DNA from: Bugulina stolonifera
Taxonomy: Eukaryota > Bryozoa > Gymnolaemata > Cheilostomatida > Bugulidae
Assembly (NCBI GenBank): GCA_935421135.1
Contig: OW285192.1
Location: 8,701,501-8,765,500 of the forward strand
Reading direction: 5' to 3'
Length of the DNA stretch: 64,000 bases
Position numbers and translations under genes: made by a program. Below the pieces are notes generated by a model. It was not told the DNA's origin. It made no database searches and saw only the letters and a program-made list of their open reading frames with translations. Positions 27,294 through 48,986 of this stretch are shown here, piece by piece (position 1 is the first letter of the stretch; every line of letters starts with the position of its first letter).

Positions 27294-27303
27294 GAAGAAC
27301 TAT
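27294..27303. other. Left target-site duplication of foldback element
   Basis: GAAGAACTAT sits immediately outside the left end (GCAAAAGTC...). It is repeated exactly outside the right end at 48977-48986. Homology between the arms stops at this base. Confidence 0.88.
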
Positions 27304-27389
27304 GCAAAAGTCAATAATGCACCCAATTTCTAAAGGCATTATTTCATGTAGTATGAGGTAGTAAATATTCATAAGAATATACAGTTATA

Positions 27390-30175
27390 CCATTGAAATT
27401 TATTTAGGTAGTATATAGTATAGTATATATTAGTGTCTATATGCTGAAAGATAGTCGGTAGTCAAGATAGCCGATAGTCAACCTGTTTTCTCCATTGAAA
27501 TTTATTTAGGTAGTATATAGTATAGTATATATTAGTGTCTATATGCTGAAAGATAGTCGGTAGTCAAGATAGCCGATAGTCAACCTGTTTTCTCCATTGA
27601 AATTTATTTAGGTAGTATATAGTATAGTATATATTAGTGTCTATATGCTGAAAGATAGTCGGTAGTCAAGATAGCCGATAGTCAACCTGTTTTCTCCATT
27701 GAAATTTATTTAGGTAGTATATAGTATAGTATATATTAGTGTCTATATGCTGAAAGGTAGTCAGTAGTCAAGATAGCCGATAGTCAACCTGTTTTCTCCA
27801 TTGAAATTTATTTAGGTAGTATATAGTATAGTATATATTAGTGTCTATATGCTGAAAGATAGTCGGTAGTCAAGATAGCCGATAGTCAACCTGTTTTCTC
27901 CATTGAAATTTATTTAGGTAGTATATAGTATAGTATATATTAGTGTCTATATGCTGAAAGATAGTCGGTAGTCAAGATAGCCGATAGTCAACCTGTTTTC
28001 TCCATTGAAATTTATTTAGGTAGTATATAGTATAGTATATATTAGTGTCTATATGCTGAAAGGTAGTCGGTAGTCAAGATAGCCGATAGTCAACCTGTTT
28101 TCTCCATTGAAATTTATTTAGGTAGTATATAGTATAGTATATATTAGTGTCTATATGCTCAAAGATAGTCGGTAGTCAAGATAGCCGATAGTCAACCTGT
28201 TTTCTCCATTGAAATTTATTTAGGTAGTATATAGTATAGTATATATTAGTGTCTATATGCTGAAAGATAGTCGGTAGTCAAGATAGCCGATAGCCAACCT
28301 GTTTTCTCCATTGAAATTTATTTAGGTAGTATATAGTATAGTATATATTGGTGTCTATATGCTCAAAGATAGTCGGTAGTCAAGATAGCCAATAGTCAAC
28401 CTGTTTTCTCCATTGAAATTTATTTAGGTAGTATATAGTATAGTATATATTAGTGTCTATATGCTCAAAGATAGTCGGTAGTCAAGATAGCCGATAGTCA
28501 ACCTGTTTTCTCCATTGAAATTTATTTAGGTAGTATATAGTATAGTATATATTAGTGTCTATATGCTGAAAGGTAGTCGGTAGTCAAGATAGCCGATAGT
28601 CAACCTGTTTTCTCCATTGAAATTTATTTAGGTAGTATATAGTATAGTATATATTAGTGTCTATATGCTGAAAGATAGTCGGTAGTCAAGATAGCCGATA
28701 GTCAACCTGTTTTCTCCATTGAAATTTATTTAGGTAGTATATAGTATAGTATATATTAGTGTCTATATGCTCAAAGATAGTCGGTAGTCAAGATAGCCGA
28801 TAGTCAACCTGTTTTCTCCATTGAAATTTATTTAGGTAGTATATAGTATAGTATATATTAGTGTCTATATGCTCAAAGATAGTCGGTAGTCAAGATAGCC
28901 GATAGTCAACCTGTTTTTCCCATTGAAATTTATTTAGGTAGTATATAGTATAGTATATATTAGTGTCTATATGCTCAAAGATAGTCGGTAGTCAAGATAG
29001 CCGATAGTCAACCTGTTTTCTCCATTGAAATTTATTTAGGTAGTATATAGTATAGTATATATTAGTGTCTATATGCTGAAAGATAGTCGGTAGTCAAGAT
29101 AGCCGATAGTCAACCTGTTTTCTCCATTGAAATTTATTTAGGTAGTATATAGTATAGTATATATTAGTGTCTATATGCTGAAAGATAGTCGGTAGTCAAG
29201 ATAGCCGATAGTCAACCTGTTTTCTCCATTGAAATTTATTTAGGTAGTATATAGTATAGTATATATTAGTGTCTATATACTGAAAGATAGTCGGTAGTCA
29301 AGATAGCCGATAGTCAACCTGTTTTCTCCATTGAAATTTATTTAGGTAGTATATAGTATAGTATATATTAGTGTCTATATGCTGAAAGATAGTCGGTAGT
29401 CAAGATAGCCGATAGTCAACCTGTTTTCTCCATTGAAATTTATTTAGGTAGTATATAGTATAGTATATATTAGTGTCTATATGCTGAAAGATAGTCGGTA
29501 GTCAAGATAGCCGATAGTCAACCTGTTTTCTCCATTGAAATTTATTTAGGTAGTATATAGTATAGTATATATTAGTGTCTATATGCTGAAAGGTAGTCGG
29601 TAGTCAAGATAGCCGATAGTCAACCTGTTTTCTCCATTGAAATTTATTTAGGTAGTATATAGTATAGTATATATTAGTGTCTATATGCTGAAAGATAGTC
29701 GGTAGTCAAGATAGCCGATAGTCAACCTGTTTTCTCCATTGAAATTTATTTAGGTAGTATATAGTATAGTATATGTTAGTTTCTATATGCATACAGGTAG
29801 TTGGTAGTCAACCAGCTTTCCCCATTGAGATTTATTTAGGTAGTATATAGTATAGTATATGTTAGTGTCTATATGCTGAAAGGTAGTCGGTAGTCAAGAT
29901 AGCCGATAGTAAACCTGTTTTCTCCATTGAAATTTATTTAGGTAGTATATAGTATAGTATATATTAGTGTCTATATGCAGAAAGGTAGTCGATAATCATG
30001 GGTAGTTGGTAGTCAACCAGCTTTCCCCATTGAGATTTATTTAGGTAGTATATAGTATAGTATTTGTTAGTTTCTATCTGCATACAGGTAGTCGATAGTC
30101 ATGGGTAGTTGGTAGTCAACCAGCTTTCCCCATTGAACTTTATTTAGGTAGTATATAGGACAATATATGTTAGTG
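27390..30175 (+). repeat. 102-bp satellite array, left arm, about 27 copies
   Basis: Unit: ccattgaaatttatttaggt, a tagtatatagtatagtatat block, tagtgtctatatgctgaaag, and a tagtcggtagtcaagatagc block followed by cgatagtcaacctgttttct. Copies are nearly identical, differing at a few diagnostic sites (gctgaaag/gctcaaag; gatag/ggtag). The innermost three copies are degenerate and carry catacaggtagttggtagtc. The unit contains internal inverted symmetry around the gactat/atagtc blocks. Confidence 0.96.
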
Positions 30176-33100
30176 TTTATACACGTAGAGGTAGTCGGTC
30201 TCCTTTGTGTAAAGTATAGAATGCTATTTTTCCATCTGGTAACCCTTGTCTTCTTCTGTAGCCAGTTCCTTTTCCATCTTGGTTTCGAACAAATAAGGAG
30301 GTACAACTGGGCGTTTGAACTTCGAAAATCTTCTCCGGGCCGTAATTGGAATACTTCCCAGTGTAAACCTGTAGAGTACATAGGCCGAAATGTATGCATG
30401 TAGCTAATTACATCTCCACTCCTAGCACAGCTGAAATCTTGAAATATAACCATTCTGTTCATTTTCAATGTAAAAAAGCACTCGTCAAATGAACTGGTTT
30501 TGTCGTTTACCACGAAATATTCAATCATCTGAGGGGTAGTTTTACAGAATGAAGCGACAATGAGCGAGAAAATGCGACTTCGCAATAATGTTAGCTTGAG
30601 GAAACTTTAAATGCAATTACAAAAATCACACGTCATTTCTGTTCTCATAGTGCCAAAGCAACCTCCCATTTTATAAAGATTTCTAGCATTTGAGGTGCGG
30701 CCAAGTATTTTTTTGCATGAAACTTTTGATCATACATAAATATTTTGATATGCAAATTTCTACACCTCACATAGTGCCAGTGTAGTTGTTGTGGTCAATA
30801 TATTTATCATACAAGTAAAAATAACAAACATTTGTCAGATCGCCATTGATAAGCTGGAAAAGATTGGTCTAGTGTTAGTGCTCATGCTCGGTAAACACTG
30901 CCCAATTAGAAGTGGTTGTGCCTGCAGCTTTCTATAGTAACCACAGTAACAACAGCTGCACATGGTCAAATAGCAGTTACTAGTATTACCAGACATAACT
31001 AGTAATACGAGATAGTTATAAATATTGTTGTTTAGGATTGCTACTGCTATGATGCCCTAATGGCTATATGAATTGAGTTGCGGGAGGTTTATAATATGTT
31101 AGACTGGGGCAATACAACAGCTACAACAATGGATAGCTGTTTGTTTTACTGCTGCAAAAAATATCAAAGACACACCAGTTATTCTCTTCGCCATATTAAC
31201 CCCCTAAAGTAGGGAATATGTGTGAATGTGTTCTGATGGCCTGCATATAGAAAGTTGGTCTCAACATTCACTCATGGAGAACATGTGTCACTTTTCCTAA
31301 CAAGTATTCTTCAAAATTGATCAACAAACCGGCTCTAGCAACTAAAAGTCACGTTAAAGATCCACCTCTGCCCTGATTCGCAAAGAGAAGCCAGATTCTG
31401 GCGGGGTATGTGACCACATTGGGGTGGCAGGTTGATGTAGTGGTCACTGACCATGCACTCCTGTTGTGGAAGGTGAGCTCTTCCACTCAGAGCCCAGTTC
31501 CTGTCGCTCATACAAGTTTCGAACATCTGAGGTTCGTTAAATAGGATGGCTAAGTGGCTCGACAGTAACATAAGAAAATACTTCATTACTCTAGGTATTT
31601 TGGTACATGTAATACACCTATATCTATATACATACAGTAGATAATATACCCATTCATACATCCTTCTACTATATAACATAGGCTACTTGCAGTATCAGAG
31701 AGCAATATTCAATGAATCATGCTACATGCAATGTCAACAGGAAAGTAGACCAAAAAGTCGTTGGCTCTCAAATTCGCCATGTATGTTCATAAGTAGCGTA
31801 ATTTATTTATTTGTTGCTTTTAGTACTGAACATAACTAATAGTGGTAGGTGAAATAAACTACATAATAATGTTACGTTTTGGTCTTAAATCACAAACTAT
31901 TGATATTTTTAGCTGCATCCTAAGATACTTGATGCAACATCTGTAGCTGCATGCATATCTAGTAATACTACCAGAAGTAATGTATTTCTACCAAGTTCTG
32001 AAAGCAACTCTAATGGCAGCATTTGAGTGTTTTTATCAACTTCTAAAAGGCCTCTTAGTCTCTGAGGTCACTTGAATTTGTACAATATTTTCATTAACTG
32101 GATTATTATTATTGCTGCTCACAACTCTTCATGCCTAGCCTATTGATGTGGGATGTAGACAAGTAGGAAATGTTGATAGAGAGGTTTAGAAACCTATGAC
32201 TTGTATGTTCATAGGAATCTCACAAGTTCAGTAGCGGATATTAACAAATATTTTTCAAACTATTCCCAACTTTATGCTATTTTAAAATGATTGTGTTCCT
32301 TTGTTGAATGTTACATTATGTAATTTAAACAGAGTTTCTCAAACACATTAGAAGTCTGTGATAGTGATGTCCTGGTTATACATAGCAATTTTCGAAATCG
32401 ATAGAATCTGTACAATTGTACTAAAATATGCCATTACACCTAGAACTGGCACTTTAGGAGGTGTAGAAAAGTCATATTTGAAATCTGATTTAGACACATG
32501 TTTTTGTATGTGGCCCATCTTCGATTGCTAGAGCGGCTACTTTTTTTTTCAAGATATTCAGAGGTTGCTTCTGTACTATCATATGAGTGATCTGTACAGT
32601 TTCTAAATAGATGTTCTCCAATCGGACAGTTTGGCGGAAAGACAGATATTTTCGCTGATCACTTTCATTTCCCCAAAGACTTTTACTGCTTGTTCCAATA
32701 TTGGCAAGCTCACAACACATTCTAGGGTGAGCGATTAATCAGCACTATATGGTTAATCATGATGAAATATTATTTCGACTTTTGCTGCCAGAGGTATGAT
32801 TGTAACATTACTGCCAGATTAATACACCAGGAATGCAGAACAGTATCATAGTTGTGTGCATCGTTTGTGCTACACAATGTACATCATGTACACATAGATG
32901 TGTGTTTTGTAAAAGTAGAGTGACCTAGAATAATATGCAAGAGTAGACAATTATATTTGTTCTATAAATACCTGGTTGGAGGCAGATACAGCAAGTTTAC
33001 CTTGAGATCCAGAGTGGTGTTCATGGCTTGTACATGCAGTTGTAGCAGAGGACTAGTTTTAGAATGAATACCAGTTATACAGACAGTACTTCCATCATGA

Positions 33101-33452
33101 CTGACTAGGTTGTGCCCATTGTTCATTATGCCCACCTTTCAAGCCACATAATATTCTATAACACAGTTGGTTTGCTTAGTTGTACAGCTGTGTACCCTAC
33201 CATTAGGTGTTGTATTTCATGTACACCCTTTGTATCTAACATATAATTACAGGATTAGTAGTTGTTAGTGAAATACATTATTAGAATTTATCTCTTATCA
33301 GTAAACAATCTGTATTTGTGAGACACCATGTTGTATGGCACTAAATTATCTCATCTGTTTACCTAATATTGGCTTTGCAGCACTGATTTCTGCTATCCTT
33401 CTGTCCACATACATGTATTATGTCTTTAGTAAGGCAGAGATTCAAACAAGAC
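30176..33452. other. Unique part of left foldback arm
   Basis: Mostly the inverted counterpart of 42668-44870. Shared landmarks include the putative exon remnant at 30177-30368 and the segment containing gggtggcaggttgatgtagt (31421-31440). A block of about 0.8 kb (roughly 31910-32710) has no counterpart in the right arm. No intact gene was recognised. Confidence 0.7.
30177..30368 (-). pseudogene. Possible captured terminal exon, left arm copy
   Basis: A 192-nt minus-strand open segment after a plausible acceptor (ctctacag) begins VYTGKYSNYGPEKIFEVQTP, continues with a DGKGTGYRR motif and ends PLRV followed by a stop. Its twin in the right arm (44666-44857) has exactly the same length and frame with several substitutions. 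The stop lies right at the junction with the satellite. I do not recognise the protein. A longer ORF in another frame covers the same bases, so coding status is uncertain. Confidence 0.35.
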
Positions 33453-33947
33453 ATCATAGCCTCAATAAATGTTATCAATAAATAATAGCAAAGTAATATG
33501 GTTTCAATAAATTCATTCTTTGGTCCTAAGGTCTGTAACATAGCATTTTACTTTCTAATAATAACTATATGCCTGCATTTTGTGGGAGGGAGGTTTCCAT
33601 CTCTTATCAGTAAACAATCTGTGTTTGTGAGACACCATGTTGTATGAAGCTAAATTATCTCATTGGTTTTGTAGCATTGATTTCTGCTATCCTTGGTCCA
33701 CATGCATGTGTTATCTCTTTAGTCAGGGAGTTAGTGCTGGGAAGAGCTGCATGTAGTTAAGAAGCTCTGCTTGGCTACTTAACAAGGTGAATACGAAAGG
33801 TTTATTGATATTACAAATGTGTATGGCATAACATATTAACCATGTACCTGAAAAGCAGATGCTTTCAAAAAGACTTATGTAATTGCTGATTTAAACAGAC
33901 GGTACACACAGCTCTTTAGCTATATGATACATAGTTGAATATTTGAA
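33453..33947. other. Apex (spacer) of the foldback element
   Basis: This is the non-palindromic centre between the two arms. It contains a partial direct copy (33595-33730) of the arm segment at 33287-33440, which holds acaccatgttgtatg and the tttctgctatccttggtcca block, so the apex has also been duplicated locally. No ORF of note. Confidence 0.65.
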
Positions 33948-34117
33948 TGTTTGAATCTCTGCCTGACTGAAGACATAATACACGTATGTGGACCAAGGAT
34001 AGCTGAAATCAGTGCTACAAAACCAATATTATGTTAACAGATGAGATAATTTAGTTCCATACAACATGGTGTCTAACAAATACAGACTGTTTACTGATAA
34101 GATATGGAAACCTAATA

Positions 34118-34122
34118 ATGTA
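34118..34122. other. Left target-site duplication of BEL/Pao element
   Basis: ATGTA precedes the left LTR and is repeated exactly at 42663-42667. Joining the flanks across one copy restores continuity with the opposite foldback arm (gtgaaatacattattag), confirming insertion into the palindrome. Confidence 0.92.
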
Positions 34123-34780
34123 TGTAGCAGCCCCCCTGGTTGAGCTTTGAATTCACTGATGCTGTTTGTTTAGCGTTACGTTTTTATTTCTGTATAATAA
34201 TAGCCTTAGCACCTTAGCACCGTGAAACTAAAATAATGAGGAATAACATTTAAGCATAGTTATGTAGCTAATATAGAGTATGTATAGTTGGTTAAGAAAT
34301 GTTAGAAGTAAAATATACATGCTAGTTATAAATGAAACTGCAAGAAATTAAGCACACAAAACATTATTTCCAATAATATTTAATAATATGGAGCTAAATA
34401 AATACCTTGATAACACCATCCAGGAGAGTGCTAGTATTAGAGTATACTTGCTGTAACTTGTATAATAGAAATTATAATATGTGTATATAGGATGTTCTAA
34501 AGCCTACATTATTACGGCTAGGCTTCTAAACTCAAAATGCCTAATGGTAAAATATCTCATATAAATGAAAAATAAGAAAAATGATTCACTTGATAGCTGT
34601 TGTAACAGTAAATCATACGTGGCAGCGGATCTTTGTCTTGCAATAATGTTGCAAGTACATGTAGGAGGAAACAGGATAAAGAATGGGGGCTTGGGTGGAT
34701 GAATCAAGCAGCCATTGCATAGCAGTAAACAACTTACTGAAATTTTAAATCTAATGTATATTTCTAACAAAGACTTCACA
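34123..34780 (-). repeat. 3' LTR of BEL/Pao element
   Basis: It runs from tgtagcagccccc to aaagacttcaca on the plus strand. On the minus strand an AATAAA (in cagaaataaaaacg) lies near the end of the LTR and is a candidate polyadenylation signal. Confidence 0.95.
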
Positions 34781-34832
34781 CTCCCACCTAAAATTTCACA
34801 AATCTAACAAGGTTTACAACACTATTCATTTT

Positions 34833-37800
34833 CTAGCAATCGACTTTGTCGACATTGTCAATCAGTACAACAAGTTTTGAAACTGGTCGAGTAAGATAAT
34901 TTTCAGAATTTCTAGGCTGTTTTGTATTACCCAGCAATAGTTTGACTGAGCGGATGCGATTATCGGCTGATTTTATACATTTAGCAACTTTCGCCATTTT
35001 CCAGTTTTGCCGCGGTACATTAGTCTCCTGAATGAGCACTATTGCCCCTTGTTTGATGTCGGGTAAATCTTTTATCCATTTTTGTCGCGATTGCAAATTA
35101 GCTAGATACTCAGTTTTCCAGCGTTTCCAGAACACGTTGGCTAAGTGCTGCACCGCTCTCCAGCGCTTCCGAGAGTATACATCAGCTTCTTCAAAGGTGT
35201 GTGGTGGTGGTAAGACCACATCGGACTTCATGGTCAGCAACATGTTTGGAGTTAAGGGAACTTGCTCTTCGCTGACTGCTGATAGAGGCCTTGAGTTGAT
35301 AATTGACATGACCTCGTAGAATAGGGTCCGAAGCCCACTTGTGTCCAACCTTCCAGGATGCGATTTCGCAATCCCCATTAGCACGTTTCTAGCAATTCTG
35401 ATCATTCGCTCCCACACACCTCCCATATGACTGGCATTGGGAGGATTCAGTTTAAATTCGAGTTCCCCCTTCCTTGACAGTTCAGAGATAGCTCCAACAA
35501 AGTTGGTGCCTTGATCACATCTAACCTCTGCTATTGGACCTCTGATAGAGACCACATTCCTGAAGCCATTGATGAATGAGGTTGTACTCATGTCATCAAG
35601 AACCTCTATATGAACTGCGCGGCTGGCTAAGCAGGTCACTATAAGGCCATATCTCTTAATCTCAGATCTCCTTTCTTTAACTACAAAAGGGCCAAAGCAA
35701 TCGAGTCCCACACACGTAAATGGAGGGCTAGGGGTGGTGCGTGAATCAGGTAGCTGCGACATTTGTGGGATACTTGGGCTAGCTCTGATTTTTCTGCATG
35801 TCACACATTTGTGGATCAGAGATGAGATTGCAGATTGACCATTTACAATCCAGTAGCCTGCGCTACGTATCTTTGCTAATGTTGTTGTTCGACCTTGATG
35901 GGCAGCAGCTTCATGGTAGTGACGTGTTAGGAGCACCGTGGTGTGGCTGTTACGTGGTAGTATGATAGGATGTCTCTCTGCATATGTGAGAGAGCTCTCA
36001 CCCAACCTTCCACCTACCCTCATAAGGCCACTGTCATCTATGAAGGGATCCAGATTATATATTGAGCTGCCTTTAGTTAGTTGGTTACCATTTGAAAGAG
36101 TCTTTAACTCTGGAAAGTTTTCTTCTTGGATAGATTTGATTATTAGGCTCACTATCAAGTCGTGTTTGGCGGTTGGACTGGATTGTTTATTTTTGAGTGC
36201 ATGAAGTTTATTGACAAGGGCACCAATCGCTTTCAATGCAGTTTTCCAGCTGGAAAAGCGTTCTAAGCGCTGGCTTAGGCTGAATGGCGGTTTTTGGCTT
36301 GTTGCTGATAGAGCTTTGACTTCCAGGTCATCGACTCTTACCTGTGGTGTCGGTTGCTCTGGCATCATAATTGGCTCACACAAAAGAAAATCTGGCCCTG
36401 TGAACCAATTCGAGTTGATTAACTGGTTTATCGTCATGCCTCTAGAGGCGTGATCAGCGGGATTGACAGATGTTGGGATATAGAACCAGTTTTCAGGGTC
36501 GCAGTTGTCCCTTACTTGCTGTATCCTATTTGTGACATAGACATGGAATTTCTTTGTTTTGTTTTTCAAGTATCCAAGAACTACTTGAGAATCTGTCCAA
36601 AATGTTTCTGTTACTTTCACTCCAATTTCAGCTCTGATAAGGCTGGACAGCTTAGATGACACAACGGCTGCTTGCAGTTCGAGACGTGGAATGGTAATTG
36701 CCTTGAGCGGGGCCACCCTGGCTTTACTCATTAACAATGAGCAGTGAACTTTGTCTTCAGCGTTGACGAGTCTCAGGTAACTAACTCCTCCGTAGCCAGA
36801 GGTGCTGGCATCTGAGAAGTGGTGTAGTTCGGCTCTGGTGATGGCGCCAAATCCAGGTGGTTTGTAGCAACGTGAGATGTTTATATTGATGAGGTCAGGT
36901 AGCGATGATTCCCAGCTCTCCCACCGTGACAGCAGCTCTCCAGTAAGAGGATCGTCCCAAGATGTTGCAACCCGGCACATGTCCTGCAAAATATTCTTTC
37001 CCTGCAAAATGAATGGAGATAGGAATCCAAGTGGGTCATAAATTGAGGCAATGGTAGAAAGAATGCCCCGCCGGGTGCGAGGGCTCTCCTTTGGAGTAAA
37101 GCTAAACTGGAAGCTATCCGATTTTAGTGACCAGAGAAGTCCTAGTGTGCGTTCCATTGGCTGAGAAACATCATCTGGTGATAGAGATTGGATATCTTGG
37201 ATGTTCCTTTCTGATTCTGGCAAGAATTGGAGAAATTCAGGTGAATTGGAGGCAAACTTATGTAGACGGAGGTTTCCTTCCCTGCAAATTGAAATAGCGT
37301 CACTGATCAGTGTTTTTGCGGCGTCAGCATTGGGAAAGCTTATTAGTCCGTCATCAACATAGAAATTATCTCTGATGAATGCTTTAGATGATGAGTTACT
37401 GTTGTTACTTGTCTCACACAGAGTGCGAAGGCCAAAGGTCGTACATGCAGGGGATGAAGTGGCGCCAAAGATATGCACCTTCATGCGGTAACTAACAATT
37501 TCGTCTTGGTCATTAAACCAGAGAAACCTGAGAAAGTCTCTGTGCTCTGGAATGACACGGAATTGATGGAACATTCTGGCAATGTCACAGGTCACTCCTA
37601 TCTGCTCCTTTCGGAATCGCATCAGGATCCCAACTAGGCTGTTGAGTTGGTCTGGCCCTTGAAGAAGGTAGTCGTTTAGGCACATACCTCCCACCTTGGC
37701 AGCACCATCAAATACTACCCGAATTTTGTTCGGTTTCTTTGGGTGGTACACACCAAAGTGAGGTATGTACCAAGATTTTGGATTGTCCTGCTCATCCTTT

Positions 37801-40800
37801 GGTACTAATTCAGCATCACCCTGTGCTATTATCTCATTCATAAATTGGCGGTAGTGGTCCGAAAAGGCGGAGTCAGTGAGCTGCTTTTGGAGTAGCTTAA
37901 AGCGCCGAGCTGCAATTTGCTTCGAGTTATTAGCTTGAGGTTTATGTTTAAAGGGCAGTGGCATTGTCATGTAGCCATCTTCATCCTTATAGATTTGTTC
38001 TTTCATTAATTTCAAAAATTCGACATCGTCTATAGAAAGAGTGTTTGTTTCGTCACTGTTGGACGCTTTGAAGTCAGAGCTAAGAATGCTGATCAGCTGT
38101 GCTACTTGTTCATTATGTGTGTCAGGTTTTACAAGGAAGTCAATTTTTGATCTGTCAACTGTAGGAGTCTGCAGTATGTTAGCAGTTACTCTTATTTGGT
38201 TTGTAGCTATCTGTGGAGGTGTTGAATCACCCATTAGAGCCCAACCTAAGTCTGTCAATTTGGCAAAGGGTTCACCATCACTGCCGACAATATAGTCTCT
38301 TGGAATATATGCTTGTGTCAGGTTGCCACCTATAAGAAGACCTACATCTATGTCCTCTCGTAGTGGCATGAGCTTGTTGGAAAGGTGACGTAAGTGAGGC
38401 CACTTTCGTACAGAATCTGGTGTCGGGATGTGGTCCCGGTTGAGGGGGATTTTTGTTTGTGCATACACATTTGGTAAGTTTAGGTACTTGTGGTGGTTGT
38501 ATCCACGTACTTGTAGTCCGAAGACCTCAGCCCTGCTCACTGTATCACCATCAACATTGCTCAGTGTGCTCATGTTCAAATCAGAGTTTTTGACATCACT
38601 TGTGTTAAGTTTTGCTAGTGTGCTATTTGTGATGAAACTATTGTCAGCTCCAGAATCTATTAGTGCATAAACAAGTACTTCATTATTTGGATCAGATTTG
38701 GAAGATACAAAAACTGGTACGGTCCATGACATGATCTGTGAACTCCTACATGTATCTGCATTGTTTGTATTAGCGACTTGAACTAGTTGTGGTGTTGTTG
38801 GTTTGCTTCCAGCACTTTTTTCGCCTGCATTTGGTGCTGCATTCTGATCAGTTGGTTTTGTTTTAGAAGACTTGTTGGTTTCATTGTAATTGGAAGGCTT
38901 TCTATTTTGCTGCTTATCATTTTGACTTTCAGCATGTTCCTTGCGCCTAGACATTACAAAGTCATGTGACACAGTTGGGTGATTTTGGCTGCAATTGTTT
39001 TTACGGCACTTGGCAGGGTTTTTGCAATCTTTTGACATATGGTTTGGTTTCAGGCAAGAAAAGCACAACAAATTGTTTTTCATGAACTCAACCTGTTTCT
39101 CATGACTCAACTTAGCTAGATCATTGCAGTTGGATGTTCTGTGATTAGACATGTTACATTTGAGGCATACACTGGGTTTTGATTCTGCATTTCTGACATG
39201 TGCTTTCCTTTCTGGCTTTTTAAAATTATCTGACTTCATCTGCTTATTAGGTTTTTCACTTAGACTCATATTGTGCAAAGTTTGTGTCAAAGAATTGTTC
39301 ATTGTGTCAGATTCATCCGTTAGAAATTCAATGAAGTCCCTGAGAGGGGGAAACTTCCCATGTTTCTTCTCTAGTTTTGTGGCCTTTGAAGACCACTTCA
39401 GTGCTATAGCATATGGCAGCTTAAGAATGAGGTTCTTGTTGGCGGCCTTAGAGTCAAGGCTAAGGTCACCAGAGTCATATGCTGCACAAGACTCGAGAAA
39501 ATCAACAAACCTTTCTAGTTGCTCTCCGTCATTTGACTTAATCTTTGGCCAGTCTTCCAACTTCTTCTCAAAGGCTTCTGTTATAACCTCAGGCTTACCA
39601 TATCTTTTGTCTAGTTTCCTCCATGCATCTCGGTAAGCGTCTGCAGTCTTTACCCGACAATAACCACTGATAGCATCCATTGCCTTACCCCCAACATATT
39701 GTTGAAGCTTAAGCCACTTCTGCCCTGGGGTGCATTGACTCATGTCAAAGGCCTCTTCAAAGGTAGTCTTCCAATCAGCATATTTGAGTGGGTCACCATA
39801 AAATACTGGTGGCTCTCCGGGCCTCTGCCGCACCGTATTAATGGCTTCAGCCAGGTGCTTGGCAAAATCAGGGTGGGTGCTTACACTGGAAGTCGGTGAC
39901 TGATCCAGTATCGGGTTCCTGTGTATTTCTACCGGTGGTCGACGCATAGGTGTGGTTGGCAGCCCTAAATGTTCAGAATGGTGAGAGTATGATGACTGTC
40001 TAATACCCGAATTTCGTACTGAAGGAGGCCGCATGAGTGATACAGCATCACCACGCAGTTCCTCCTCCTCTGCTATTGCTTCAGCAAAAATCTTTTGCTT
40101 CTGTACTTCAGCTCGTAGCTCAGCTTGGAGCTTAGCCTGGGTCATCAGGCTTTTGTTTTTCTGAACTTGAGACTGAAGTTTAAGACTCTCTTCTTCTAGT
40201 TGTGCAGATGCTATCTCTGCCTCTAGTATTGCTTGTTTGTTGGCAGCTGCAGCTTCGGCTTCTGCTCGCAGCCTTCTCAATGATTGGCTGTGGTTGCTCG
40301 AGTTACGGGAGGATAATGATTTATGATTTGAGCTGTGATTAGAACGTTGACTGCGAACGCTACGTTGACTGCGAGCGCTGGCACAACCAGGTTTCTCTGC
40401 CGCTTTATCTGGGTGTTGACTCGGTATCTCAATACTAGGGCCATCGTTAGAATGATGCTTGGGCTTAGCGCTAAGGTCACCCATTCTATCAGAAACATTT
40501 TCGCTTAATTCCCGATTATCTGCAGAAACTCTGTCTACCTCTTTGCGCAAAGTTGGACTAACTTCCAAGTCGCCATTTGCAGTTTTGAACTTTTCATATA
40601 ACTGTATAACATGGGTTAAACCAACACTTAACTCATTATCCATACTAGCAAGGCGCTCATAATGCAGTTGCACATCTCTATCGCTTAATTCCTCGAGGAA
40701 GGAAGCATGTATTACGCTTAAGGCTTCTATTGCTTGTTGCAAATCAGATAATATGGGTAGATTTTGAATTCTGAGAGAAGATCTAGTATTTTGTTCGGTA

Positions 40801-40991
40801 TGCTGTGTCGTAGTATAGACTGGTTTACTGGCCGCCAAATCTATCGTGCTCTGCTCTGCTGTTTCACTACGCGCTGTTCCATCATGCGCTGTTCCATCAC
40901 GCGCTGTTCCATCACGCGCTGTTCCATCACGCGCTGTTCCATCACGCGCTGTTCCACTATGCGCTGTTTCACTATGCACAGACTCTACCAT
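34833..40991 (-). CDS. BEL/Pao Gag-Pol polyprotein, 2052 aa, intact
   Basis: One ORF codes for the capsid and enzymes of the element. Approximate residues: 12-44 tandem GTARD repeats; 230-320 a charged coiled coil; 380-560 the gag domain typical of BEL/Pao (FYGDPLKYADWKTTFEEAFD); 609-680 zinc knuckles (CLKCNMSNHRTSNC, then CFSCLKPNHMSKDC); 777 aspartic protease LIDSGADNSF; 1090-1250 reverse transcriptase with CDIARMFHQF and the YVDD catalytic box (about 1210); 1390-1480 RNase H-like region (HHFSDAST, FWTDSQVVLGYL); 1685-1735 HHCC integrase zinc-binding region; 1763-1862 integrase core with D, D (RCDQGTNF) and E (GGVWERM); 1905-1980 the C-terminal domain common to this superfamily (FWKRWKTEYL). 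No frameshift or internal stop. The start was chosen as the first ATG of the open frame. Confidence 0.97.
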   Translation of the reverse strand: MVESVHSETAHSGTARDGTARDGTARDGTARDGTAHDGTARSETAEQSTIDLAASKPVYTTTQHTEQNTRSSLRIQNLPILSDLQQAIEALSVIHASFLEELSDRDVQLHYERLASMDNELSVGLTHVIQLYEKFKTANGDLEVSPTLRKEVDRVSADNRELSENVSDRMGDLSAKPKHHSNDGPSIEIPSQHPDKAAEKPGCASARSQRSVRSQRSNHSSNHKSLSSRNSSNHSQSLRRLRAEAEAAAANKQAILEAEIASAQLEEESLKLQSQVQKNKSLMTQAKLQAELRAEVQKQKIFAEAIAEEEELRGDAVSLMRPPSVRNSGIRQSSYSHHSEHLGLPTTPMRRPPVEIHRNPILDQSPTSSVSTHPDFAKHLAEAINTVRQRPGEPPVFYGDPLKYADWKTTFEEAFDMSQCTPGQKWLKLQQYVGGKAMDAISGYCRVKTADAYRDAWRKLDKRYGKPEVITEAFEKKLEDWPKIKSNDGEQLERFVDFLESCAAYDSGDLSLDSKAANKNLILKLPYAIALKWSSKATKLEKKHGKFPPLRDFIEFLTDESDTMNNSLTQTLHNMSLSEKPNKQMKSDNFKKPERKAHVRNAESKPSVCLKCNMSNHRTSNCNDLAKLSHEKQVEFMKNNLLCFSCLKPNHMSKDCKNPAKCRKNNCSQNHPTVSHDFVMSRRKEHAESQNDKQQNRKPSNYNETNKSSKTKPTDQNAAPNAGEKSAGSKPTTPQLVQVANTNNADTCRSSQIMSWTVPVFVSSKSDPNNEVLVYALIDSGADNSFITNSTLAKLNTSDVKNSDLNMSTLSNVDGDTVSRAEVFGLQVRGYNHHKYLNLPNVYAQTKIPLNRDHIPTPDSVRKWPHLRHLSNKLMPLREDIDVGLLIGGNLTQAYIPRDYIVGSDGEPFAKLTDLGWALMGDSTPPQIATNQIRVTANILQTPTVDRSKIDFLVKPDTHNEQVAQLISILSSDFKASNSDETNTLSIDDVEFLKLMKEQIYKDEDGYMTMPLPFKHKPQANNSKQIAARRFKLLQKQLTDSAFSDHYRQFMNEIIAQGDAELVPKDEQDNPKSWYIPHFGVYHPKKPNKIRVVFDGAAKVGGMCLNDYLLQGPDQLNSLVGILMRFRKEQIGVTCDIARMFHQFRVIPEHRDFLRFLWFNDQDEIVSYRMKVHIFGATSSPACTTFGLRTLCETSNNSNSSSKAFIRDNFYVDDGLISFPNADAAKTLISDAISICREGNLRLHKFASNSPEFLQFLPESERNIQDIQSLSPDDVSQPMERTLGLLWSLKSDSFQFSFTPKESPRTRRGILSTIASIYDPLGFLSPFILQGKNILQDMCRVATSWDDPLTGELLSRWESWESSLPDLININISRCYKPPGFGAITRAELHHFSDASTSGYGGVSYLRLVNAEDKVHCSLLMSKARVAPLKAITIPRLELQAAVVSSKLSSLIRAEIGVKVTETFWTDSQVVLGYLKNKTKKFHVYVTNRIQQVRDNCDPENWFYIPTSVNPADHASRGMTINQLINSNWFTGPDFLLCEPIMMPEQPTPQVRVDDLEVKALSATSQKPPFSLSQRLERFSSWKTALKAIGALVNKLHALKNKQSSPTAKHDLIVSLIIKSIQEENFPELKTLSNGNQLTKGSSIYNLDPFIDDSGLMRVGGRLGESSLTYAERHPIILPRNSHTTVLLTRHYHEAAAHQGRTTTLAKIRSAGYWIVNGQSAISSLIHKCVTCRKIRASPSIPQMSQLPDSRTTPSPPFTCVGLDCFGPFVVKERRSEIKRYGLIVTCLASRAVHIEVLDDMSTTSFINGFRNVVSIRGPIAEVRCDQGTNFVGAISELSRKGELEFKLNPPNASHMGGVWERMIRIARNVLMGIAKSHPGRLDTSGLRTLFYEVMSIINSRPLSAVSEEQVPLTPNMLLTMKSDVVLPPPHTFEEADVYSRKRWRAVQHLANVFWKRWKTEYLANLQSRQKWIKDLPDIKQGAIVLIQETNVPRQNWKMAKVAKCIKSADNRIRSVKLLLGNTKQPRNSENYLTRPVSKLVVLIDNVDKVDC

Positions 40992-42004
40992 TGCTGTGTA
41001 GTGGTTAAAACAGTCTTTTTACAAAGGGTATACAACTCTTAATTGAAATATGTTACACAGTATAGGAGTGGTATTGTGAAATCTCTGCCCTTGGTTATAC
41101 AGCAGGAAATTATTTTGCTATGTCAACACTATTGTTGTAGTAGAGAAGTGTTTACTGCTATACTGGCTTGCTTGGGCAATAGGTCACACACCAATAACTT
41201 GGGTTGTTTACAGACAACTAGGAGGTAGTGCCAACGCACCAGTGGTTTGATCTACTCAAACAAAGGTCGAAGGTCAGCTTTGATAAATAGCTGTCGATGA
41301 TTAATTAAATGATTAATTACTGCTCAATGGGACATAGATTCACTGTTGCCACTGTATGATTTTACTGTCACGACCAATGATAGAAAATATACAAACTTGT
41401 ACATGCACTATGCAAAAATAGGGCTATGTAGCAAAATTCCTAATAGAATTGTTATAACCAAAATTATACCTCTTTACTGTTCAGTAGAAACAGAATATTA
41501 CTGCTCTATATAAAAAGAGAAAGTAGCTCTACTATGCTTCACTAACAAGCAGCTGAAAGTTAGTGATCAAGAAGTTAGTTTAGTAGATTTTGTGATCATA
41601 GACATGCAGTTACTAAGAGTTCAACCACACAACTTATCTGTCCTGAAGATTTGTCGCTCTGGCTCTGGCTCCGGCCCTGGCTCAATACAGACTTTACTGC
41701 GGCTCCGACTCCGGCTCTTGGCTCTGTTGACACTTTCTTCCTGTCGACGTATAGTTGAGGGAGTTCTTGTATGCTGGCACGTTAGCAGATTCGCTTGGGG
41801 AATTTAGTTTGTTAAGGTAGTTCTTTGTTGATTGGGAAGCTTGACATCAGGGTATTTGATGTAGTGTGTTTGGAACTTGTTTTAGTTACTTGTAGATATC
41901 CGAGTTTCATACGTACAGGTAGATAATGTACATGTACAGGTTTCACTTACTACGAAGGATTGTTTTGAGTTTCCCTTGCGGCGAGTAAATGTCACAAGTT
42001 TCAC
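40992..42004 (-). other. 5' leader of the BEL/Pao element
   Basis: About 1.0 kb of untranslated sequence between 5' LTR and start codon, expected to carry primer binding and packaging signals. It includes a short imperfect ctggctccgg-type repeat (41655-41720). Short ORFs here have no recognisable domains. Confidence 0.6.
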
Positions 42005-42662
42005 TGTAGCAGCCCCCCTGGTTGAGCTTTGAATTCACTGATGCTGTTTGTTTAGCGTTACGTTTTTATTTCTGTATAATAATAGCCTTAGCACCTTAGC
42101 ACCGTGAAACTAAAATAATGAGGAATAACATTTAAGCATAGTTATGTAGCTAATATAGAGTATGTATAGTTGGTTAAGAAATGTTAGAAGTAAAATATAC
42201 ATGCTAGTTATAAATGAAACTGCAAGAAATTAAGCACACAAAACATTATTTCCAATAATATTTAATAATATGGAGCTAAATAAATACCTTGATAACACCA
42301 TCCAGGAGAGTGCTAGTATTAGAGTATACTTGCTGTAACTTGTATAATAGAAATTATAATATGTGTATATAGGATGTTCTAAAGCCTACATTATTACGGC
42401 TAGGCTTCTAAACTCAAAATGCCTAATGGTAAAATATCTCATATAAATGAAAAATAAGAAAAATGATTCACTTGATAGCTGTTGTAACAGTAAATCATAC
42501 GTGGCAGCGGATCTTTGTCTTGCAATAATGTTGCAAGTACATGTAGGAGGAAACAGGATAAAGAATGGGGGCTTGGGTGGATGAATCAAGCAGCCATTGC
42601 ATAGCAGTAAACAACTTACTGAAATTTTAAATCTAATGTATATTTCTAACAAAGACTTCACA
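42005..42662 (-). repeat. 5' LTR of BEL/Pao element
   Basis: Same length and, base for base as far as I could read, the same sequence as the 3' LTR. It is followed by the duplicated ATGTA at 42663-42667 and then by the right foldback arm. Confidence 0.95.
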
Positions 42663-43332
42663 ATGTATTTCACTAACAACTACTAATCCTTTAATTATAT
42701 GTTAGATACAAAGGGTGTACATGAAATACAACACCTAATGGTAGGGTACACAGCTGTACAACTACATGTAAGCAAACCAGCTGTGTTATAGAATATTATG
42801 TGGCTTGCAAGATATGCATAGTGAACTATGAGCACAACCTAGTCAGTCATGATGGAAGTACTGTCTATATAACTGGTATTCATTCCAAAACTAGTCCTCT
42901 GCTACAACTACATGTACATGTACAAGCCATGAACACCACTCTGGATCTCAAGGAAAACTCGCTGTATCTGCCTCCAACCAGGTATTTATAGAACAAATAT
43001 AATAGTCTACTCTTGCATATTACTCTAGGTCACTCCACTTTTACAAAACACACATCTAGGTGTACATGATGTACATTGTGTAGCACAAACGATGCACACA
43101 ACTATGATTCTGTTCCGCATTCCTGGTGTAATAATCTGGCAGTAATGTTACAATCATACCTCTGGCAGCAAAAGTCGAAGTATTATTTTATCATGATTAA
43201 CCATAATAAAAATGTGCTGATTAATTGCTTACCCTAGAAAGTGTCGTGAGCTACTTGTTTTGACTGGTAGTGTTTGTAAGCAACTTTCTAAGTGAGCATG
43301 GTTGTGGTTTTGTCTGATCGTTTTATATAAAT

Positions 43333-43450
43333 TTATTTACTCTTCAAATTTGCAAGTAATGCTTGTCTATGGTGGGGTGACACAGGACTTTCAGCATGCA
43401 CTCTTTCTGATGGACTTGGCGAGTTTATGTTTTCTTTTGGTTTGCCGAAT
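43333..43450 (-). other. Possible short C-terminal exon in arm-specific block
   Basis: After an acceptor-like caatag the minus strand reads FGKPKENINSPSPSERVHAE, then about 18 more residues ending ANLKSK and a stop. Length (118 nt) and composition look exon-like. There is no upstream exon, no recognisable family and no partner in the other arm. Coding status is speculative. Confidence 0.2.
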
Positions 43451-44665
43451 CTATTGACAATTTGATCACACTTTAAATATAGAGCAACAACCACATATTA
43501 TACTTGTGTAACAATAATATGTAATTCACTTAAAACATCAATAGTTTGCAATTTAACAACAAAATGTAACATTCTTATGTAGTTTATTTCACCTACCATT
43601 ATTAGTTATGTTCAGTACTAAAAGCAAGCAATAAATAAATTACACTACTTATGAACACACATGGCCAATTTAAGAGCCAAGGACTTTTTGCTCTAGTTCC
43701 CTGTTGACATTGCGTGTAGCATGATTCATTGAATATTGCTCTCTAATAATGCAAGTAGCCTATGTTATATAGTAGAAGGATGTATGCATGGGTATATTAT
43801 TCTACTGTACATGTATATAAATATAGGTGTATTACATATACCAAAATACCTAGAGTAATGAAGTATTGATGACTTTTAGTTGCTAGAGCCGGTTTGTTGA
43901 TGAATATTGAAAAATACTTGTTAGGAAAAGTGACACATGTTCTCCCTGAGTGAATGTTGAGACCAACTTTCTATATGCAGGACATCAGAACACATTCACA
44001 CATATTCCCCACTTTAGGGGGTTAATATGGCGAAGAGAATAACTGGTGTGTCTTTGATATTTTTTGCAGCAGTAAAACAAACAGCTATCCATTGTTGTAG
44101 CTGTTTTATTGCCCCAGTCTAACATATTATAAACCTCCTGCAATTCAATTCATATAGCCATTAGGGCATCATAGCAGTAGCAATCCTAAACTATAATATT
44201 ATGACTATCTAGTATTACTAGTTATGTCTAGTAATACTAGCAACTGCTATTTGGCCATGTGCTGCTGTTGTTACTGTGGTTACTATAGAAACCCCCAAGC
44301 ACAACCACTTGTAATTGGGCAGTGTTTACCATTACGCATGGGCACTAACACTAAACCAATATTTTCCAGCTAATCAATGGCAATCTGACAAATGTTTGTT
44401 ATTTTTACTTGTACGATAAATCAATTGACCACAAGAACTATAATACTGGCACTATGTGAGGTGTAGAAATTTGCATCAAAATATTTATGTATGATCAAGA
44501 GTTTCATGCAAAAAATACTTGGCCGCACCTCAAGTGCTAGAAATCTTAAAAATTGTTTTTTTACATTGAAAATGAACAGAAGGGTTATATTTCAAGATTT
44601 CAGCTGTGCTAGGAGTGGAGATGTTATTAGCTACATTCATACATTTCAGCCTATGTACTCCACAG

Positions 44666-44857
44666 GTTTACACTGGAAAGGATTCCAATTACGGCCCGGA
44701 GAAGATTTTCGAAGTTCAAACGCCAAGTTGTACATCCTTATTTGTCCGGGACCAAGATGGAAAAGGAACTGGCTACAGAAGAATACAAGGGTTACCAGAT
44801 GGAAAAATAGCATTCTATACTTTACACAAGGAAGACCGACTACCTCTACGTGTATAA
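44666..44857 (+). pseudogene. Possible captured terminal exon, right arm copy
   Basis: Twin of 30177-30368, reading VYTGKDSNYGPEKIFEVQTP and ending PLRV plus stop. It differs from the left copy at several residues (D/Y, D/N, I/R, E/G), so the copies are not being kept identical. A 158-codon ORF (44491-44967) in another frame overlaps it and runs on into the satellite; I consider that ORF less protein-like. Confidence 0.35.
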
Positions 44858-44870
44858 ACACTAACATATA

Positions 44871-47800
44871 TTGTCCTATATACTACCTAAATAAATTTCA
44901 ATGGGGAAAGCTGGTTGACTACCAACTACCCATGACTATCGACTACCTGTATGCATATAGAAACTAACATGTACTATACTATATACTACCTAAATAAATC
45001 TCAATGGGGAAAGCTGGTTGACTACCAACTACCCATGACTATCGACTACCTTTCTGCATATAGACACTAATATTGACTATACTATACACTACCTAAATAA
45101 ACTTCAATGGAGAAAGCAGATTGACTATCGGCTATCTTGACTACTGACTACCTTCCAGCATATAGACACTAATATATGCTATACTATATACTACCTAAAT
45201 AAATTTCAATGGAGAAAGCAGGTTGACTATCGGCTATCTTGACTACCGACTACCTTTCAGCATATAGACACTAATATATACTATACTATATACTACCTAA
45301 ATAAATTTCAATGGAGAAAACAGGCTGACTATCGGCTATCTTGACTACCGACTACCTTCCAGCATATAGACACTAATATATACTATGCTATATACTACCT
45401 AAATAAATTTCAATGGAGAAAACAGGCTGACTATCGGCTATCTTGACTACCGACTACCTTTCAGCATATAGACACTAATATATACTATACTATATACTAT
45501 CTAAATAAATTTCAATGGAGAAAACAGGTTGACTATCGGCTATCTTGACTACCGACTACCTTTCAGCATATAGACACTAATATATACTATACTATATACT
45601 ACCTAAATAAATTTCAATGGAGAAAACAGGCTGACTATCGGCTATCTTGACTACCGACTACCTTCCAGCATATAGACACTAATATATACTATACTATATA
45701 CTACCTAAATAAATTTCAATGGAGAAAACAGGTTGACTATCGCCTATCTTGACTACCGACTACCTTTCAGCATATAGACACTAATATATACTAAACTATA
45801 TAGGCCTACTACTTAAATAAATTTCAATGGAGAAAACAGGCTGACTATCGGCTATCTTGACTACCGACTACCTTCCAGCATATAGACACTAATATATACT
45901 ATACTATATACTACCTAAATAAATTTCAATGGAGAAAACAGGTTGACTATCGGCTATCTTGACTACCGACTATCTTTCAGCATATAGACACTAATATATA
46001 CTATACTATATACTACCTAAATAAATTTCAATGGAGAAAACAGGTTGACTATCGGCTATCTTGACTACCGACTATCTTTCAGCATATAGACACTAATATA
46101 TACTATACTATATACTACCTAAATAAATTTCAATGGAGAAAACAGGTTGACTATCGGCTATCTTGACTACCGACTACCTTTCAGCATATAGACACTAATA
46201 TATACTATACTATATACTACCTAAATAAATTTCAATGGAGAAAACAGGTTGACTATCGGCTATCTTGACTACCGACTATCTTTCAGTATATAGACACTAA
46301 TATATACTATACTATATACTACCTAAATAAATTTCAATGGAGAAAACAGGTTGACTATCGGCTATCTTGACTACCGACTATCTTTCAGCATATAGACACT
46401 AATATATACTATACTATATACTACCTAAATAAATTTCAATGGAGAAAACAGGTTGACTATCGGCTATCTTGACTACCGACTGTCTTTCAGCATATAGACA
46501 CTAATATATACTATACTATATACTACCTAAATAAATTTCAATGGAAAAAACAGGTTGACTATCGGCTATCTTGACTACCGACTATCTTTCAGCATATAGA
46601 CACTAAGATATACTATACTATATACTACCTAAATAAATTTCAATGGAGAAAACAGGTTGACTATCGGCTATCTTGACTACCGACTATCTTTCAGCATATA
46701 GACACTAATATATACTATACTATATACTACTTAAATAAATTTCAATGGAGAAAACAGGTTGACTATCGGCTATCTTGACTACCGACTATCTTTCAGCATA
46801 TAGACACTAATATATACTATACTATATACTACCTAAATAAATTTCAATGGAGAAAACAGGTTGACTATCGGCTATCTTGACTACCGACTATCTTTCAGCA
46901 TATAGACACTAATATATACTATACTATATACTACCTAAATAAATTTCAATGGAGAAAACAGGTTGACTATCGGCTATCTTGACTACCGACTATCTTTCAG
47001 CATATAGACACTAATATATACTATACTATATACTACCTAAATAAATTTCAATGGAAAAAACAGGTTGACTATCGGCTATCTTGACTACCGACTATCTTTC
47101 AGCATATAGACACTAATATATACTATACTATATACTACCTAAATAAATTTCAATGGAGAAAACAGGTTGACTATCGGCTATCTTGACTACCGACTATCTT
47201 TCAGCATATAGACACTAATATATACTATACTATATACTACCTAAATAAATTTCAATGGAGAAAACAGGTTGACTATTGGCTATCTTGACTACCGACTATC
47301 TTTGAGCATATAGACACTAATATATACTATACTATATACTACCTAAATAAATTTCAATGGAGAAAACAGGTTGACTATTGGCTATCTTGACTACCGACTA
47401 TCTTTGAGCATATAGACACTAATATATACTATACTATATACTACCTAAATAAATTTCAATGGAGAAAACAGGTTGACTATCGGCTATCTTGACTACCGAC
47501 TATCTTTCAGCATATAGACACTAATATATACTATACTATATACTACCTAAATAAATTTCAATGGAGAAAACAGGTTGACTATCGGCTATCTTGACTACCG
47601 ACTATCTTTGAGCATATAGACACTAATATATACTATACTATATACTACCTAAATAAATTTCAATGGAGAAAACAGGTTGACTATCGGCTATCTTGACTAC
47701 CGACTATCTTTCAGCATATAGACACTAATATATACTATACTATATACTACCTAAATAAATTTCAATGGAGAAAACAGGTTGACTATCGGCTATCTTGACT

Positions 47801-48890
47801 ACCGACTATCTTTGAGCATATAGACACTAATATATACTATACTATATACTACTTAAATAAATTTCAATGGAGAAAGCAGGTTGACTATCGGCTATCTTGA
47901 CTACCGACTATCTTTCAGCATATAGACACTAATATATACTATACTATATACTACCTAAATAAATTTCAATGGAGAAAACAGGTTGACTATCGGCTATCTT
48001 GACTACCGACTATCTTTGAGCATATAGACACTAATATATACTATACTATATACTACCTAAATAAATTTCAATGGAGAAAACAGGTTGACTATCGGCTATC
48101 TTGACTACCGACTACCTTTCAGCATATAGACACTAATATATACTATACTATATACTACCTAAATAAATTTCAATGGAGAAAACAGGTTGACTATCGGCTA
48201 TCTTGACTACCGACTATCTTTCAGCATATAGACACTAATATATACTATACTATATACTACCTAAATAAATTTCAATGGAGAAAACAGGTTGACTATCGGC
48301 TATCTTGACTACCGACTATCTTTCAGCATATAGACACTAATATATATTATACTATATACTACCTAAATAAATTTCAATGGAGAAAACAGGTTGACTATCG
48401 GCTATCTTGACTACCGACTACCTTTCAGCATATAGACACTAATATATACTATACTATATACTACCTAAATAAATTTCAATGGAGAAAACAGGTTGACTAT
48501 CGGCTATCTTGACTACCGACTATCTTTCAGCATATAGACACTAATATATACTATACTATATACTACCTAAATAAATTTCAATGGAGAAAACAGGTTGACT
48601 ATCGGCTATCTTGACTACCGACTATCTTTCAGCATATAGACACTAATATATACTATACTATATACTACCTAAATAAATTTCAATGGAGAAAACAGGTTGA
48701 CTATCGGCTATCTTGACTACCGACTATCTTTGAGCATATAGACACTAATATATACTATACTATATACTACCTAAATAAATTTCAATGGAGAAAACAGGTT
48801 GACTATCGGCTATCTTGACTACCGACTATCTTTCAGCATATAGACACTAATATATACTATACTATATACTACCTAAATAAATTTCAATGG
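44871..48890 (-). repeat. 102-bp satellite array, right arm, about 39 copies
   Basis: Reverse-complement orientation of the left array, same 102-bp period. It has about a dozen more copies than the left. The innermost copies (44871-45160) are degenerate in the same way as the innermost copies of the left array, showing that the degenerate edge predates arm duplication. Variant units (ctttcagc/ctttgagc; ccgacta/ttggcta) are interspersed, typical of unequal exchange. Confidence 0.96.
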
Positions 48891-48976
48891 TATAACTGTA
48901 TATTCTTATGAATATTTACTACCTCATACTACATGAAATAATGCCTTTAGAAATTGGGTGCATTATTGACTTTTGC

Positions 48977-48986
48977 GAAGAACTAT
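48977..48986. other. Right target-site duplication of foldback element
   Basis: GAAGAACTAT directly follows the right end (GACTTTTGC) and matches 27294-27303 exactly. The first coding exon of the next gene starts 270 bp downstream. Confidence 0.88.

Follow-up and report, generated by a model that had tools for sequence, protein, structure and literature searches.

The 64-kb stretch of Bugulina stolonifera DNA analyzed here (hereafter, the window) contains a long palindromic element that is very probably a non-autonomous foldback DNA transposon of the Mutator-like type. It belongs to a multi-copy family with near-identical ends, 9-10-bp target-site duplications, copying of the whole palindrome, arrays of variable size and no recognised coding region. 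Its classification as a foldback element and, less certainly, as Mutator-like was adopted because its plan is that of Tetris, FB4 and Tm1 and only the scale differs. The original prediction had described a 13-kb foldback with arms of 6.1 and 6.5 kb and a perfect 10-bp duplication outside each end, and both points were borne out, since the element spans 27304-48976 and measures 13,133 bp once the nested retrotransposon is removed. Inverted arms form most of the element, self-alignment giving a left arm of 6,145 bp (27304-33448) and a right arm of 6,489 bp (33948-34122 plus 42663-48976). Going inwards, each arm starts with a terminal domain of 86 bp, continues with an array of 102-bp units and closes with an inner arm measuring about 3.2 kb on the left and 2.3 kb on the right; a loop of about 0.5 kb lies between the two arms (Table 1). 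The outermost 244 bp of the arms are a perfect inverted match, and the left and right inner-arm segments are 91-93% identical, or 85% when globally aligned across gaps. Within the window, GCAAAAGTCAATAATGCACC was found once on the forward strand (27304) and once on the reverse strand (48957-48976), and the only two occurrences of GAAGAACTAT, starting at 27294 and 48977, form a perfect 10-bp target-site duplication. The bases outward of the two GAAGAACTAT copies are not the same and, once joined, the flanks find no match in the genome other than themselves, which places the 10-bp match outside any longer shared repeat. An Rfam scan of 27000-49300 gave no match, and the 20-bp end was absent from the IMG/VR contigs scanned.

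Table 1. Parts of the foldback element and of its nested retrotransposon, in window coordinates
Feature	Position	Strand	Remarks
Left target-site duplication, GAAGAACTAT	27294..27303	.	Exact match
Left 86-bp terminal domain, begins GCAAAAGTCAATAATGCACC	27304..27389	+	Same sequence as the right one
Left array, 27.5 units of 102 bp	27390..30199	+	
Left inner arm	30200..33448	+	Its two longest open frames (179 and 115 aa) lack a Pfam match
Dispersed repeat, about 224 bp	31353..31575	+	In the left arm, lacking in the right arm
Loop between the arms	33449..33947	.	Smaller local inverted repeat extends into the loop
Right inner arm, first piece	33948..34122	-	Severed by the nested retrotransposon
ATGTA, 5-bp duplication left of BEL/Pao	34118..34122	.	
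Nested BEL/Pao LTR retrotransposon, 8,540 bp	34123..42662	-	LTRs and Pfam domains
ATGTA, 5-bp duplication right of BEL/Pao	42663..42667	.	
Right inner arm, remaining part	42668..44834	-	
Right array, 39.5 units of 102 bp	44835..48890	-	TRF inner edge at 44853
Right 86-bp terminal domain	48891..48976	-	
Right target-site duplication, GAAGAACTAT	48977..48986	.	Exact match

The BEL/Pao retrotransposon was inserted in the right arm of the foldback, near the loop, and its open frame (34833-41018) has Pfam matches to Peptidase_A17, DUF5641, DUF1759 and Integrase_H2C2. Its two LTRs, of 658 bp each (34123-34780 and 42005-42662), show 100% identity, which means that the insertion is young.

In the genome (235 Mb in 27 contigs) the 20-bp end was found 84 times in exact form, 41 forward and 43 reverse, and 132 times with up to two mismatches, for which the reversed-pattern controls gave 0 and 1, respectively; with 84 exact matches against none in the control, the presence of these ends is not due to chance. 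Convergent exact ends lying less than 45 kb apart were joined into 21 pairs including the window, which account for 42 of the 84 ends. Reading the borders of these pairs showed perfect 9-10-bp duplications in 13, near-perfect ones in three and none in five. The perfect duplications measure 10 bp in 11 pairs (the window, C2:7069183, C3:3893671, C5:6181754, C5:9530994, C6:16577248, C8:3044208, C9:4807312, C9:8776808, C10:11867685, and C10:12846806) and 9 bp in two (C2:17865734 and C11:7671836). Near-perfect duplications flank C6:1679562 (9/10), C6:9015765 (10/11), and C9:8663236 (8/10), and the pairs without duplication are C1:18335603, C2:18917820, C3:16561441, C6:16082662, and C9:11475736. Foldback elements are expected to produce duplications of 9-10 bp, and those found here also lie within the 8-11 bp described for MULE elements (PMC6446971). 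Additionally, two copies that lack the retrotransposon are 98.0% (C2:7069183, over 6,841 aligned bases) and 98.7% (C5:6181754, over 5,918 aligned bases) identical to the left arm of the window. For three insertions a paralogous empty site was sought in the genome and none was found, the joined flanks matching their own flanks only.

The remaining 42 ends were unpaired, and 24 of their loci were read, one of which (L073) has two ends. At six of the 24 (L069, L070, L078, L080, L082, and L084) the likeness to the element ends after 20-64 bp, and we read these as truncated copies or elements with other content. Among the pairs, C3:16561441 was rejected as a family copy because its flanks themselves form an inverted repeat; it was kept among the 21 and counted in the five without duplication. 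This region (L027-L029, C3:16561141-16581920) is a degenerate palindrome of more than 20 kb, with arms containing a stretch that, from its motif, is presumably PIF/Harbinger-like and that encloses the exact 20-mer. The 10.1-kb pair at C2:18917820, with a different interior, was rejected as an autonomous partner, having five open frames without Pfam match and no duplication. The corresponding region (L024-L025, C2:18917520-18928216) is a composite with the same 20-bp ends and an inverted repeat of 1,220 bp (99.3% identity), and may be a relative which captured other DNA. The centers of two long copies were also read. In the 33.5-kb copy (L055, C9:4820500-4827500) virus-like genes for an A32-type packaging ATPase and a retroviral-type integrase, Polinton-like by our reading, are apparently nested within the foldback, and in the 15.6-kb copy (L058, C9:8781100-8788100) a 143-aa frame presumably corresponds, from its pattern, to a copia-type RNase H, and probably to one more nested retrotransposon.

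The comparison of both arms among copies provides a marker of left and right. Three inner-arm segments were aligned among eight copies, with segment C lying next to the loop, B in the middle and A next to the array. In segment C (15 sequences), pairs of left arms are 0.3-2.3% apart and pairs of right arms 0.1-1.7%, but up to 5.1% where C2_17865 and C1_18335 are involved, and left-right differences amount to 5.0-7.6%. The two groups are separate in segment B (14 sequences; left-left 0.3-3.6%, right-right 0.0-2.3%, left-right 5.1-8.9%), and the ranges overlap in segment A (14 sequences; left-left 0.4-3.6%, right-right 0.4-4.6%, left-right 3.4-6.0%). Moreover, the 224-bp repeat occupies the same place, within unbroken alignments, in the left arms of eight copies (window, C2_7069, C5_6181, C2_17865, C1_18335, C10_12846, C6_16577, and C8_3044) and is missing from all eight right arms aligned (the same copies, with C9_8776 in place of C8_3044). 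Genome-wide, this repeat had 488 first-look candidates, 40 of which were scored. It stands alone at three loci, and 12 of the 40 matches listed lie between convergent family ends, five of them (C9_8776, C9_8663, C11_7671, C10:3697112, and C8:7350734) being placed between ends only. The left-arm segment 31360-31570 was dropped as a copy counter, as it corresponds to this separate dispersed repeat.

Since the arm-specific differences and the left-arm 224-bp repeat are common to the copies, the aligned copies derive from one lopsided ancestor, which is a strong argument against assembly folding and local inverted duplication. Long palindromes and tandem arrays are difficult to assemble and the element combines both, which would favor an error of assembly, or else an inverted duplication of the chromosome, the 10-bp match arising by chance. 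Nevertheless, we consider either of these extremely improbable in view of the 5-9% by which the arms differ in segments B and C, with the same pattern in copies located on separate contigs, the different duplications at many sites, and the three insertions with flanks that match only themselves. Judging from the alignments, the lopsided 13-kb palindrome moved as a unit, and faulty assembly and local inverted duplication are both rejected as its origin. The original prediction had likewise read the palindrome as a mobile insertion rather than a chromosomal duplication, to be refuted by a lack of other copies or by a 10-bp match within a longer shared repeat; other copies exist, the match is not part of such a repeat, and the reading is supported.

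The terminal domains and outer arrays differ from the inner arms in how alike they are on both sides. Ungapped comparison showed that the 86-bp ends are the same on the left and right in the window, C5_6181, C8_3044, and C9_8776, differ by one to four bases in C2_7069, C6_16082, C6_16577, C10_12846, C11_7671, and C1_18335, and by seven in C9_8663; distances of at least 22 in C2_17865, C9_4807, C9_11475, C2_18917, and C3_16561 are read as shifted alignment or as pairs that are not simple copies. In three copies, the outer 102-bp units of both arms lie 0-4 bases from a single consensus, and the innermost units show 0-2 differences when those of one side are compared and 6-9 when left is compared with right. 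The mean between-arm unit distance of a copy is intermediate to its two within-arm values. The 86-bp end resembles the 102-bp unit only weakly, the same level being reached by 10 of 500 shuffles. Ends and outer arrays are thus similar in both arms though the inner arms diverged, and exchange between arms or selection could account for this pattern.

The number of tandem units varies between arms and between copies, as is characteristic of foldback elements. The smallest array, found in a 0.66-kb copy, has 3.4 units, and the largest, in the right arm of C2:17865734, has 183.5 units (18.7 kb); the left arm of the latter copy has 15.5 units, and a perfect duplication surrounds the copy. Because the 168 units excised from this right array comprise only 32 distinct sequences, units or blocks of units were probably duplicated recently. 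The copy at C8:3044208 is 39.5 kb long, has a perfect duplication, and has a left outer arm of 29.9 kb from which four samples (315, 4,001, 7,001, and 2,719 bp) were entirely array; this array probably holds about 290 units, assuming that the remaining 15.9 kb are alike. At the other extreme, four small copies of 0.66-1.44 kb are made of the ends plus a few units. This wide range of array sizes, from 3.4 to 183.5 units, and the small copies with hardly more than ends would also suit a satellite-type repeat that came first and was acquired by a small transposon, the arms being built from dispersed array pieces. Such an origin seems very improbable to us, as at least 367 of the 654 exact matches to unit 31-mers lie within family element sequence and none was found in the window outside the element; besides, the 100 unit matches listed, in contig order (none on C1, and C2 to 17.88 Mb), all fall in two foldback copies. 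The foldback arm might also serve as a mobile satellite nursery, in which hundreds of units build up within one arm of an element that stays intact, and the enlarged palindromes of 27-40 kb still transpose and bring a finished satellite array to new sites, an idea that we regard as speculative and unlikely.

Outside the retrotransposon, the longest open frames of the element encode 179, 166, and 115 aa; the 166-aa frame is, by eye, a mirror copy of the 179-aa frame, and the 179- and 115-aa frames lack a Pfam match. Because nothing in the element resembles an enzyme gene, movement of the family must then depend on an enzyme supplied from outside. A genome search with the MULE profile PF10551 scored 18 candidates and retained seven places, all above the cut-off, none of which lies between paired ends, the closest exact end being 71 kb away. 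One place (L015, C2:24921044 region) has an open frame of 802 aa with matches to Transposase_mut and MULE, 55% identical to the best database protein, and the 15 kb around it contained a single end look-alike, with six mismatches. A relative 97% identical to it (L061, C8:12610261) contains tandem repeats with a period of 33 or 66 bp, and the surrounding 10 kb had no end look-alike. Likewise, no end-linked transposase was seen, mostly by eye, in the open frames of ten pairs, five more centers, and 24 unpaired-end loci.

The 9-10-bp duplications together with the long arms fit MULE transposases, and the link to Mutator, which is drawn with less certainty, is based on duplication length and arm type rather than on an enzyme. 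A foldback moved by a non-Mutator transposase is an alternative that we judge unlikely. It is favored by the MULE profile search and the surroundings of the 802-aa frame, which yielded no enzyme, and by the precedent of Galileo, whose published description combines foldback-like arms with a transposase of the P superfamily (PMC3573991). All 13 perfect duplications measure 9-10 bp, which agrees with the 8-11 bp given for MULE elements in the source cited above and speaks against this alternative. The P-type transposases produce duplications of 7-8 bp, a length seen in none of the 13 perfect cases. Under the preferred Mutator-like reading, a MULE transposase acting in trans would be encoded elsewhere and would recognize the conserved 86-bp ends, and perhaps also the 102-bp units. 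The entire 13-kb palindrome would then be excised and inserted at a staggered 9-10-bp cut, and filling in of this cut would generate the target-site duplication. Growth of the arrays and their evening-out between arms could proceed by unequal exchange or template switching. Points that count against this reading are the negative outcome of the transposase searches, the five pairs without duplication, the overlapping distances in segment A, the right-right value of 5.1% in segment C, and the three insertions for which no empty site turned up.

A text search of the literature, by description, returned relatives in plan and none recognisable as this element. Tetris of Drosophila virilis, compared by plan, likewise has an outer flanking domain, a tandem-repeat domain, an inner domain and a middle, and its description reports 8-10-bp duplications, no coding region and no autonomous partner found, similar to the findings here (PMC4079207). 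Its arms reach 1,735 bp and are built from units of about 220 bp (PMC4079207), whereas the arms described here measure 6-6.5 kb, with a 102-bp unit and, on one side of a copy, an array as long as 18.7 kb. The Tetris unit was reported to have seeded satellite-like arrays (PMC4079207), and the notion that tandem units of a foldback seed satellites may apply here. FB4 (Foldback) of Drosophila melanogaster is described as non-autonomous, of unknown enzyme, with 9-10-bp duplications and repetitive, rearranging arms, is grouped with MULE for these reasons, and has captured a host gene; it resembles the present family in autonomy, duplications and arms, but its arms measure only about 700 bp (PMC8277862). 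The likeness to Drosophila FB and MULE-linked foldbacks in the original prediction thus held for the plan, and the search for a MULE transposase carrying these ends found none. The Tm1 Mutator/Foldback elements of root-knot nematodes share composite arms, variable tandem units, and longer and miniature forms, with 9-bp duplications, units of 13-15 bp and class averages of 0.4-2.6 kb, and according to the account one copy encodes a Phantom-like transposase, unlike the family described here, for which none was found (PMC3169594). Rehavkus-1_TC from Tribolium is a 9.5-kb element with a satellite-type 164-bp unit repeated in its inverted ends (PMC10218199), and the Rehavkus group has 9-bp duplications and encodes a PHD-finger transposase (PMC10218199; PMC6446971). 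With respect to size, the arms of at least 6 kb compare with the 0.7-1.7 kb given for FB4, Galileo, and Tetris, and with a whole length of 0.4-2.6 kb for Tm1. In addition, dozens of ends and long copies with a built-in left/right marker in a single genome show which parts of a palindrome are alike between arms and which are arm-distinct. The family also allows the study of satellite-like arrays within transposon insertions and offers a test case for which enzyme mobilises FB-type elements.

Other repeats were observed in the window. An LTR element at 10790-16110 has LTRs of about 660 bp that are 98.5% identical and a single 1,231-aa frame, which by our own reading is presumably gag-like, with no pol seen; LTR-like copies stand alone at 16765-17433 and 21102-21688. 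Units of 37 bp and of 15/30 bp form tandem arrays at 1788-2190 and 22938-23200. A 3-kb inverted-repeat element at 53344-56312 has arms of about 1.27 kb at 88.8% identity and ends TGGGCCATTCCA, and at 59728-61706 a 176-bp tandem array lies between inverted repeats of about 245 bp, another foldback-like plan in the window.
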